Part shown: one piece after another, positions 53,134 to 55,362 of the stretch | Layout: the number at the start of each line of letters is the position of its first letter | Position numbering within the stretch: position 1 is the stretch's first letter | From: Phycisphaerae bacterium | Lineage (GTDB): Bacteria > Planctomycetota > Phycisphaerae > UBA1845 > Fen-1342 | DNA length: 64,000 nt | Direction of reading: 5' to 3' | Assembly: GCA_022072445.1 (NCBI GenBank) | Contig: JAJVHV010000017.1 | Location: 1-64,000, forward strand | Notes under the pieces: model-generated | Databases searched by the model: none | What the model was told of the DNA's origin: nothing | Seen by the model: only the letters and a program-made list of their open reading frames with translations | Program-made: the position numbers and the translations under genes

Positions 53134-53544
53134 TCACTTCCGGGTCGTCGTGCCGCGGCGCGACGAACCGGCAGCCGCGGCCGCGTTCTCGGCGATGCGG
53201 GCCTTCACCAGTTTCCGTACCAGGGCTGCCGGCAGCGGGCGATCGGGCTGAAAGCGGATCGTGCCCTTGCTGGTGTCGTAGCCCTCCAGCGCCTCGCGAT
53301 GCGCCGCGATGGTCTTGTCGCTCATGAGATAAAACGCGCAGTGCTTGGCAGTCGCGCCCAGCGCCACGAGCATCCGGCCCTGATGCCGAAACGCCGCAAG
53401 CTGGTAGCTGATGCACTCCTCGGCACCCGGCGCCGCGGCGCGGATCGTGCGGCGGAGCTTCTGCAGCGCGGCGCGCTGCTCCGTGCCCAATGCGGCGAGG
53501 TACTCGTCAAATGACGTCGCTGCGGTCCTGGACTCACCTGGCAT
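53134..53544 (-). CDS. DUF1801 (YdhG-like) protein
   Basis: A 136-aa protein with the DUF1801 pattern: FDEYLAALGTEQRAALQKLRRTIRAAAPGAEECISYQLAAF, MLVALGATAKHCAFYLMS, and GTIRFQPDRPLPAALVRKLVKARIAEN. These cytoplasmic proteins are often linked to ArsR/AHSA1 genes and may bind iron or small molecules, but function is open. It overlaps the DUF998 gene by 11 nt and is the last gene of the arsR operon. Confidence 0.85.
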   Translation of the reverse strand: MPGESRTAATSFDEYLAALGTEQRAALQKLRRTIRAAAPGAEECISYQLAAFRHQGRMLVALGATAKHCAFYLMSDKTIAAHREALEGYDTSKGTIRFQPDRPLPAALVRKLVKARIAENAAAAAGSSRRGTTTRK

Positions 53545-54235
53545 CCGGCATCCTCCTCGAGCGCCGCGCGCCGGCCGCCCATCCCGCGATCAGCATGAGC
53601 CACGCGGCGTGAGACAGGATCATGATTCGATTCGGCCAGCCCAACCGCGTCTCGGGACCAGGCCTGCCGCCGGCCGCTGGCAGCACGCTCATCATAGCCC
53701 AGACGAAAACGACGGTCCCCGCGAGCGGGATCCACGCGCTCCAGAAGAGTCCCGGCCGGTAGACCCGCCACGCCGGGCTACGCGACAGGCTCCAGTTGAT
53801 CAGCAGCGCTGCCAGCGGAATCATGTCCAGCATGGCGCCCAGCTCGTGCAGCCGACCGCGACCGGTCGGAGTCGGGTCGGCTGCCGTGAGCGAGTCACAC
53901 TCGAAGATCGCCGCGAGCACCATGCCGGCCGCGCTGGCTGCCAGCATCAACAACCCGAGATAGCCCGCGATAGTCCGGACGTGTGCCAGCAAGGCCGCGC
54001 CCAGGCTGATGCAGCTCAGCGCCAACGCCACGAACGCCGCGCGCATCACCCAGCCGAAGTCGCCCAGCTCATACTCGCTGATGAAGCGCCGCGACGGATC
54101 GAGCTCCGGTTTCAGCAGGTGCAGCACGGCCAGCAGGACGACAAACGCCGCGCCGCACGCGAGCGCGAGCTGCGCCGCCCCGCGCGGCGGCACAGCGCAA
54201 TCGCGACCCGTTTGCGGAAGCGCCGCGCGCGTCAT
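53534..54235 (-). CDS. DUF998 family membrane protein
   Basis: A 233-aa membrane protein with six predicted helices (LALACGAAFVVLLAVLHLL, GWVMRAAFVALALSCISL, IAGYLGLLMLAASAAGMVL, IPLAALLINWSL, FWSAWIPLAGTVVFVW, LSHAAWLMLIAGWAAG) and the DUF998-type RRFISEYELGDFGWV and GRLHELGA segments. The start overlaps the AHSA1 stop (ATGA) and the end overlaps the DUF1801 start. Confidence 0.82.
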   Translation of the reverse strand: MTRAALPQTGRDCAVPPRGAAQLALACGAAFVVLLAVLHLLKPELDPSRRFISEYELGDFGWVMRAAFVALALSCISLGAALLAHVRTIAGYLGLLMLAASAAGMVLAAIFECDSLTAADPTPTGRGRLHELGAMLDMIPLAALLINWSLSRSPAWRVYRPGLFWSAWIPLAGTVVFVWAMMSVLPAAGGRPGPETRLGWPNRIMILSHAAWLMLIAGWAAGARRSRRMPDAR

Positions 54236-54756
54236 CGCTTCATGCCCGCGAGGATCGCATCCAGCGCGTCGTAGCCGGCCGCCACGCCACGCTCCATGCC
54301 CGACGTCAGCGCCGCGTCGCGCGCCTCCTTCGAGTTGAACAGCAGCGTCATCCGCAGGTGTGTCTTACCGCCCGACTCCGTCAGCTCAAGCGTCGCAAGC
54401 AGTTCCCACGGTTCGGCGTCCGCGCAATCCGAGCCGCAACCCCCGGCGCCAGGCCCCATCGTCATGAGTTCGTTGTGTACGATCCTTGCGGGCGGGACGA
54501 CTTCGCGGTGCTCCCCCCAGATCGACAGCGCCCGCTCGCCGTTCGGCCCGTTCCACTCCCAGCGATACTTGCCGCCCACCCGCACGTCCATCTCGCACGC
54601 CGCCCACGACCACCCGGGCGGCGTGAACATCCACTGCCTGACCAGCTCGGGTTTGGTCATGGCGTCCCAAACGAGCCGCCGCGGCGCATCGAACGCGCGC
54701 GTCATGACGATCTCAAGGTTCGACGGCGTCGTGACTTTCAGGCCGGTGCTGTTCAT
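54232..54756 (-). CDS. AHSA1/SRPBCC-domain protein
   Basis: A 174-aa START-like (SRPBCC, AHSA1/CalC) protein: IVMTRAFDAPRRLVWDAMTKPELVRQWMFTPPGWSWAACEMDVRVGGKYRWEW and the terminal helix ERGVAAGYDALDAILAG. The fold binds hydrophobic ligands; pairs with ArsR-type regulators are common and suggest a ligand-responsive unit. Two cysteines (GGCGSDCADAEPWE) sit in a loop. AGAGAGGATCG precedes the ATG at 54756, chosen over the long upstream frame, which overlaps arsR. Confidence 0.88.
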   Translation of the reverse strand: MNSTGLKVTTPSNLEIVMTRAFDAPRRLVWDAMTKPELVRQWMFTPPGWSWAACEMDVRVGGKYRWEWNGPNGERALSIWGEHREVVPPARIVHNELMTMGPGAGGCGSDCADAEPWELLATLELTESGGKTHLRMTLLFNSKEARDAALTSGMERGVAAGYDALDAILAGMKR

Positions 54757-54845
54757 CGATCGATCCTCTCTGGTGAGTGGGTTATCCGATACGGAGTTCC
54801 GTAACGCGCGTGTCCTCGGGCGTGCCCGCGTCGGCGATGCGAGCT

Positions 54846-55316
54846 TCAGACCTCGCCCGCACCCTCGCCGCGCTCTTCCGACTTCATCACCTCCAGCAGC
54901 GCATCCAGCGCCTGGAAGCGCTTCTCCCACAACGCGCGGAATTGCTCGGTCCACAGGGCGACCGCCCGAAGCGGCGTCGCCTTCAGCCGGCACACATGCT
55001 CGCGCCCGGACACGCGCCGCCTCACCAGCTTCGCCCGCTCCAGCACGCGAACGTGTTTGGAGGCCGCCGGAAACGACATCCGCAACGGCGCGGCCAGCTC
55101 GCTCAGGTTCCACTCGCCCTCCGCCAGACGCCGGATCATCGAGCGGCGTGCAGGGTGCGCCAGGGCGTGAAAGACGCGGTCCAGGCTGGGAGAGAGGTCC
55201 ACGCTGGGCGAACCCCGCGCTTTCGCCGAACGCGGCAGGCTGGGCGAGTGGCGACGATCCGGCGTGCGCTGCGGGGAGCGCGAGCGGCGCGATGCGGGCG
55301 GACGATTTGTAACCAT
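54846..55316 (-). CDS. ArsR-family transcriptional regulator
   Basis: A 156-aa winged-helix protein: DRVFHALAHPARRSMIRRLAEGEWNLSELAAPLRMSFPAASKHVRVLERAKLVRRRVSGREHVC. It lacks the ELCVCDL metal site of ArsR/SmtB sensors, so it belongs to the SRPBCC-linked branch. The first 40 residues are basic and Pro/Ser-rich. The ATG at 55316 lies inside the proximal operator and at the predicted transcription start. Confidence 0.87.
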   Translation of the reverse strand: MVTNRPPASRRSRSPQRTPDRRHSPSLPRSAKARGSPSVDLSPSLDRVFHALAHPARRSMIRRLAEGEWNLSELAAPLRMSFPAASKHVRVLERAKLVRRRVSGREHVCRLKATPLRAVALWTEQFRALWEKRFQALDALLEVMKSEERGEGAGEV

Positions 55317-55362
55317 GTGGTTTAGTATATCCGCTCCCGCCAAGACGGGCAACCATTTGGTT
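55311..55362 (-). promoter_or_regulatory. arsR promoter with two palindromic operators
   Basis: On the minus strand TTGCCC (55347-55352) and TATACT (55324-55329) are 17 nt apart. Two dyads AACCA-NN-TGGTT lie at 55311-55322 (over the start codon) and 55351-55362 (over the -35), 40 bp apart, each followed by TTArTAT. Transcription should begin close to 55317, next to the ATG, so the mRNA is probably leaderless. Confidence 0.8.

Follow-up and report, generated by a model that had tools for sequence, protein, structure and literature searches.

A predicted leaderless arsR-AHSA1 operon with a putative repressor operator centred on the start codon of its first gene

The window analysed here, a stretch of 64,000 nucleotides from a Phycisphaerae bacterium (assembly GCA_022072445.1, contig JAJVHV010000017.1, positions 1 to 64,000), carries a compact minus-strand unit in the order arsR, AHSA1, DUF998 and DUF1801, preceded by a putative promoter and two copies of a palindrome:

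55351..55362, minus strand: upstream operator (op1), AACCAAATGGTT, overlapping the -35 hexamer with its right half
55347..55352, minus strand: -35 hexamer TTGCCC by sequence reading, with a 17-nt spacer to the -10 hexamer
55324..55329, minus strand: -10 hexamer TATACT by sequence reading, with 7 nt between its end and the arsR ATG
55311..55322, minus strand: start-codon-centred operator (op2), AACCAC/ATGGTT, with the dyad axis at the presumed +1, the A of ATG
54846..55316, minus strand: arsR, 156 aa, HTH_20/HTH_5, N-terminus Met-Val
54232..54756, minus strand: AHSA1 (SRPBCC/START-like) protein, 174 aa, with an SD-like GAGAGG upstream
53534..54235, minus strand: DUF998 protein, probably membrane-bound, 233 aa, its start overlapping the AHSA1 stop (ATGA)
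53134..53544, minus strand: DUF1801 protein, 136 aa, overlapping the end of the DUF998 gene by 11 nt

All domains that the original prediction had assigned to this operon of arsR, AHSA1, DUF998 and DUF1801 were found again with Pfam. The ArsR protein scores 40.7 bits against HTH_20 (cut-off 27), 26.5 bits against HTH_5 (cut-off 22) and 73.2 bits against NF033788 (cut-off 55), which places it among the ArsR-type winged helix-turn-helix proteins, and the product of the second gene is likewise placed in Pfam AHSA1 with 81.8 bits (cut-off 22.1). Reading the ArsR translation by eye revealed neither of the metal-site motifs looked for (alpha3 CxC and alpha5 DxHxxH) and a single Cys only. It should also be mentioned that in this protein the first residues, MVTNR, are separated from the HTH domain by an insert of about 37 residues, rich in Arg, Ser and Pro, that its relatives do not have; the corresponding DNA (minus strand, 55200-55310) contains imperfect repeats and the peptide the repeats SPSL/SPSV, and the insert has the look of a partial duplication of the domain's first codons. 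In addition, an open frame of 374 aa (54232-55356, minus strand) begins at an ATG of the upstream operator, crosses arsR in a different frame and continues into that of AHSA1; it is probably a chance product of a G+C-rich region.

The arsR ATG lies at 55316 on the minus strand and is separated from TATACT by the seven nucleotides AAACCAC, in agreement with the -10 box that had been placed about 7 nt before the ATG (55329-55324). TTGCCC-17-TATACT is the sole sigma-70-like site in the 2.9 kb scanned (0.2 in shuffled sequences), and by sequence reading no Shine-Dalgarno sequence is found ahead of the ATG. Since transcription normally starts about 7 nt after a -10 box, this spacing points to leaderless transcription. 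The perfect dyad AACCAnnTGGTT / AACCANNTGGTT is found twice in the window, 40 bp apart, against an expectation of 0, and these two are also the only perfect copies in the whole genome of 5.25 Mb, where a reversed-pattern control gave none; the operator is thus duplicated as had been proposed. When one mismatch is allowed the count in the genome rises to 38 sites, compared with 23 in the control, and since this is near background and only two perfect sites exist, the regulator looks local. The axis of op2 passes precisely between position -1 and the first letter of the ATG, by which the earlier statement that one operator covers the start codon can be made more precise.

A homology search with the ArsR domain gave 63 loci, mostly from Phycisphaerales, other Planctomycetota and Myxococcota, the rest being from Acidobacteria, Gemmatimonadetes, Alphaproteobacteria, Verrucomicrobia and one haloarchaeon. 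The AHSA1 gene directly adjoins arsR in nearly all of them, as it does in the window, and its product is likely to be the conserved effector. As to the notion of a ligand-sensing unit, the AHSA1 adjacency is general and DUF1801 recurs among the genes downstream (9 of 74 scanned), but DUF998 was not found in the loci of the relatives and no ligand is indicated. From the window and from homologue, whole-genome and plasmid loci, 73 distinct promoters were assembled that have a dyad with at most two mismatches and its axis on the ATG. They span several bacterial phyla as well as haloarchaea, and in every one the axis coincides exactly with the A of the start codon; in 64 of the 73 the best -10 stops 7 nt 5' of the ATG, the spacer to the best -35 is mostly 16-17, and SD-like 4-mers precede the arsR ATG in none. 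By way of control, the AHSA1 starts in the same operons have an SD in 38 of 44 cases, and a dyad with at least 5 of 6 pairs in 0 of 44. A second dyad is found at 39/40 bp, on the -35 box, in the 36 promoters scored as class A (AACCAnnTGGTTGACA), one of which (L013) looks by eye like class B, and at 17 bp, between -35 and -10, in the 24 promoters of class B, and the remaining 13 are arranged differently or have one site only. When 294 Planctomycetota genomes were scanned blind for the two-operator pattern, this gave five matches, the window and four others, all at arsR-AHSA1, and no control match. The class B pattern with its 17-bp spacing was not found in these 294 genomes, and class B is therefore rare in the sampled phylum, though common among the nearest homologues. 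Related arsR genes of Burkholderia arboris (L097) and of Sinorhizobium meliloti pSymB (L095/L106) have palindromes upstream of the start codon that are not centred on it, and appear to be alternative architectures inside the family. Genome G004, which belongs to the window's family, encodes seven arsR relatives (L072, L081-L086) with differing half-sites, and these paralogues constitute a natural set for studying operator cross-talk.

The right half of op2 is at the same time the beginning of the gene. Codon 2 is GTT in 63 and GTA in 10 of the 73 promoters and never GTC or GTG, whereas in the rest of these genes GTC and GTG account for 422 of 477 Val codons; this restriction against the preference of the genes argues for a DNA site and not for conservation of the protein. 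A wider set of 154 genes was picked by protein similarity without regard to dyads, the nearest in-frame ATG being taken as the start, and here the palindrome score peaks exactly at the ATG with 3.47 of 6 pairs against a mean of 1.56 over axes (2.76 against 1.56 in a reduced set of 88 members). In either set the covariation of the positions -4/+4, -5/+5, -7/+7 and -9/+9 exceeds that of each of 2000 shuffles; the shuffles ignore relatedness, which the reduced set lessens without removing. No start-centred dyad is present in 63 of the 154 genes, or about 40% of these wider relatives. Alternative half-sites with the same centre include TTAGCCAT/ATGGCTAA (Met-Ala, L083), TTAGGCAA/ATGCCTAA (Met-Pro, L144), TTAAGTAT/ATGCTTAA (Met-Leu, L149), CTGAACCAG/ATGGTTCAG (Met-Val-Gln, L112) and CTACAACCAA/ATGGTTGTAG (Met-Val-Val, L167), and the non-coding left arm and codons 2-3 thus change together.

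Furthermore, the operator covaries with the recognition helix of the repressor. The invariant His is preceded by Lys (once by Arg) where the dyad is of the Val type, in 80 cases, and by Gln in each of the five dyads of the Leu/Pro type. Among all genes with a usable dyad, 98 combine Lys/Arg with G at +4 and 10 combine Gln with C; a single gene has Lys/Arg together with C and none has Gln together with G, so that 108 of 109 fit. Fisher's test on this table gives p ~1e-6 with relatedness ignored. On an ArsR tree built with the residue masked, which is short (102 columns) and weakly resolved, residue and base change seven times each; the independent pairs are never opposite in direction, but only three of the seven fall on branches with strong support, a number too small for a sign test to reach significance. 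Two actinobacterial arsR genes beside a palindrome of the Rv2034 type (see below) encode SQH and likewise fit the rule. Judged from this covariation, it is most likely ArsR itself that reads the start-codon-centred operator, and the pairing of Lys/Arg with G and of Gln with C at +4 would, if this holds, provide a testable rule by which to predict the operators of a large and mostly uncharacterised ArsR subfamily.

The haloarchaeal arsR copies form one group on the ArsR tree with a support of 99. They keep the start-centred operator, and their second one, 35/36 bp away (34 bp in L119), runs with its right half into a TTTAA/TTAAATA box that lies roughly where a TATA box would be expected. This suggests a single transfer to haloarchaea, after which the second operator would have been re-fitted to the archaeal promoter, and if so, the haloarchaeal copies would exemplify a single repressor and its operator adapted to two unrelated transcription machineries. 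One of the helix/+4 switches falls inside this group, in L119. In this locus on a plasmid of Haladaptatus sp. DYSN1 (around 650-700), op1 (TTAAGCAAATGCTTAA), codon 2 (CTT, Leu) and the helix (SQH) are all switched relative to the haloarchaeal relatives.

The geometry of promoter and operators, its conservation, the DNA constraint on codons 2-3 and the covariation of helix and operator are established by the sequence comparisons, and we hold it to be very probable that they reflect a self-repressed arsR-AHSA1 operon, the message of which would begin at the A of the arsR ATG and the repressor of which would act on the two dyads. According to this model, the transcript starts at the arsR ATG, a dimer of ArsR bound to op2 would cover +1 together with the downstream edge of the -10 box, a second one bound to op1 would cover the -35 box, and the two, perhaps with cooperativity, would exclude RNA polymerase and thereby repress the operon. 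A signal, probably not a metal, would lower the occupancy and allow arsR, AHSA1, DUF998 and DUF1801 to be made together. Since the promoter-proximal operator straddles the start codon, it would also set the N-terminal residues of the repressor, its right half forming codons 1-2, and in some relatives codon 3 as well, which in the window gives Met-Val. The leaderless start and the autorepression by way of the dyads, both part of the original prediction, appear well supported by the 73 promoters with their 7-nt spacing, the missing SD and the covariation.

The clearest competitor is a leadered message that starts further upstream, for example with translation from the in-frame TTG at 55352 or from an upstream promoter, in which case the dyad over the ATG would be an operator placed at the beginning of the gene by chance. 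An ORF of 168 aa starting at this TTG does exist, and in 26 of the 36 class A promoters the two dyads are 39 bp apart, so that the op1 triplet, often ATG or GTG, is in frame and an upstream start may be used in these relatives; the 40-bp spacing of the window puts it out of frame. However, 11 of the 36 have something other than a start codon at the op1 triplet (TAG in L005), whereas op2 has ATG in 73 of 73, and the annotated start is the dyad-centred ATG in nine of 13 annotated plasmid loci, the other four being without an AACC-type start dyad. Together with the uniform lack of an SD and the exact position of the -10 box, this makes an upstream start improbable.

It might also be argued that the Met-Val start and the neighbouring bases are conserved at the level of the protein or the promoter and that there is no operator at all, and since the -10 box (TATACTAAACC) adjoins the left arm, this arm could indeed be partly promoter. 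Such a reading is poorly compatible with the use of GTT and GTA alone in G+C-rich genes, with a left arm that follows codons 2-3 across differing half-sites, with a second dyad copy at 17, 35/36 or 39/40 bp and with the covariation of the recognition helix; it is already largely contradicted and we consider it most improbable. Equally faint is the chance that ArsR in addition acts on the message by stopping ribosome entry at the leaderless AUG. The notion stems from the position of the start codon inside the operator, and a block of both transcription and the first codon had been predicted, but ArsR-family repressors bind duplex DNA and the transcript would hold a single half-site (AUGGUU) and no RNA dyad. 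A translational operator was rejected because only one half-site is transcribed, and the predicted block is retained for transcription only.

If this picture of a self-repressed operon with two DNA operators is correct, regulatory site and coding start would coincide in a single sequence with unusual clarity, the covariation can be read in three places at once, namely the left arm, codons 2-3 and the recognition helix, and the arrangement would offer a sequence signature for leaderless genes that does not depend on transcript data. With somewhat less assurance, but still as the favoured view, we propose that an ArsR subfamily of bacteria and haloarchaea places its dyad axis on the start codon of a leaderless gene, that operator specificity, recognition helix and residues 2-3 coevolve, and that the module has crossed domains with its second operator on the TATA box instead of the -35 box. 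No prior description of the motif or the arrangement was found in the open literature searched, the limited coverage of which makes this absence provisional.

Among known systems, Rv2034 of M. tuberculosis is a proven ArsR autorepressor of the Rv2034-Rv2035-Rv2036 operon with a footprinted palindrome, is unaffected by the metals tested, and has in its footprint (CCGTAAGT-N4-ACTTACGG) a C at the position equivalent to +4 (PMC3338718). As in the window, the ArsR gene is followed by one of the SRPBCC type (polyketide_cyc2 in the Rv2034 operon), and the palindrome, whose arms have the same geometry (GTAAG-N6-CTTAC), lies beside the start codon, but the half-site is CTTAC as opposed to GTT.. in the window, and the footprint covers -30 to +3 with the palindrome just upstream of the annotated GTG, whereas op2 is centred on the ATG. 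Rv2034 moreover regulates other genes too, whereas the window's genome has only the two operators. One of the two actinobacterial loci with a palindrome of the Rv2034 type, L172, resembles class B in that two copies of the dyad lie at its start with a spacing of 17 bp. The SdpR-type autorepressors (NCBIfam NF033789) share the ArsR fold and autorepression of a short operon, the latter predicted for the window, but the window ArsR scores 44.2 bits against this model, well under the curated cut-off of 100, and the partner SdpI is absent from the Pfam matches of the operon. Leaderless regulator messages with operators around their own promoter are also known from lambda cI, transcribed from PRM, and from the C proteins of restriction-modification systems, although these operators are not known to be centred on a start codon. 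These proteins belong to families unrelated to ArsR, and what they would have in common with the window is the leaderless autoregulator predicted here.
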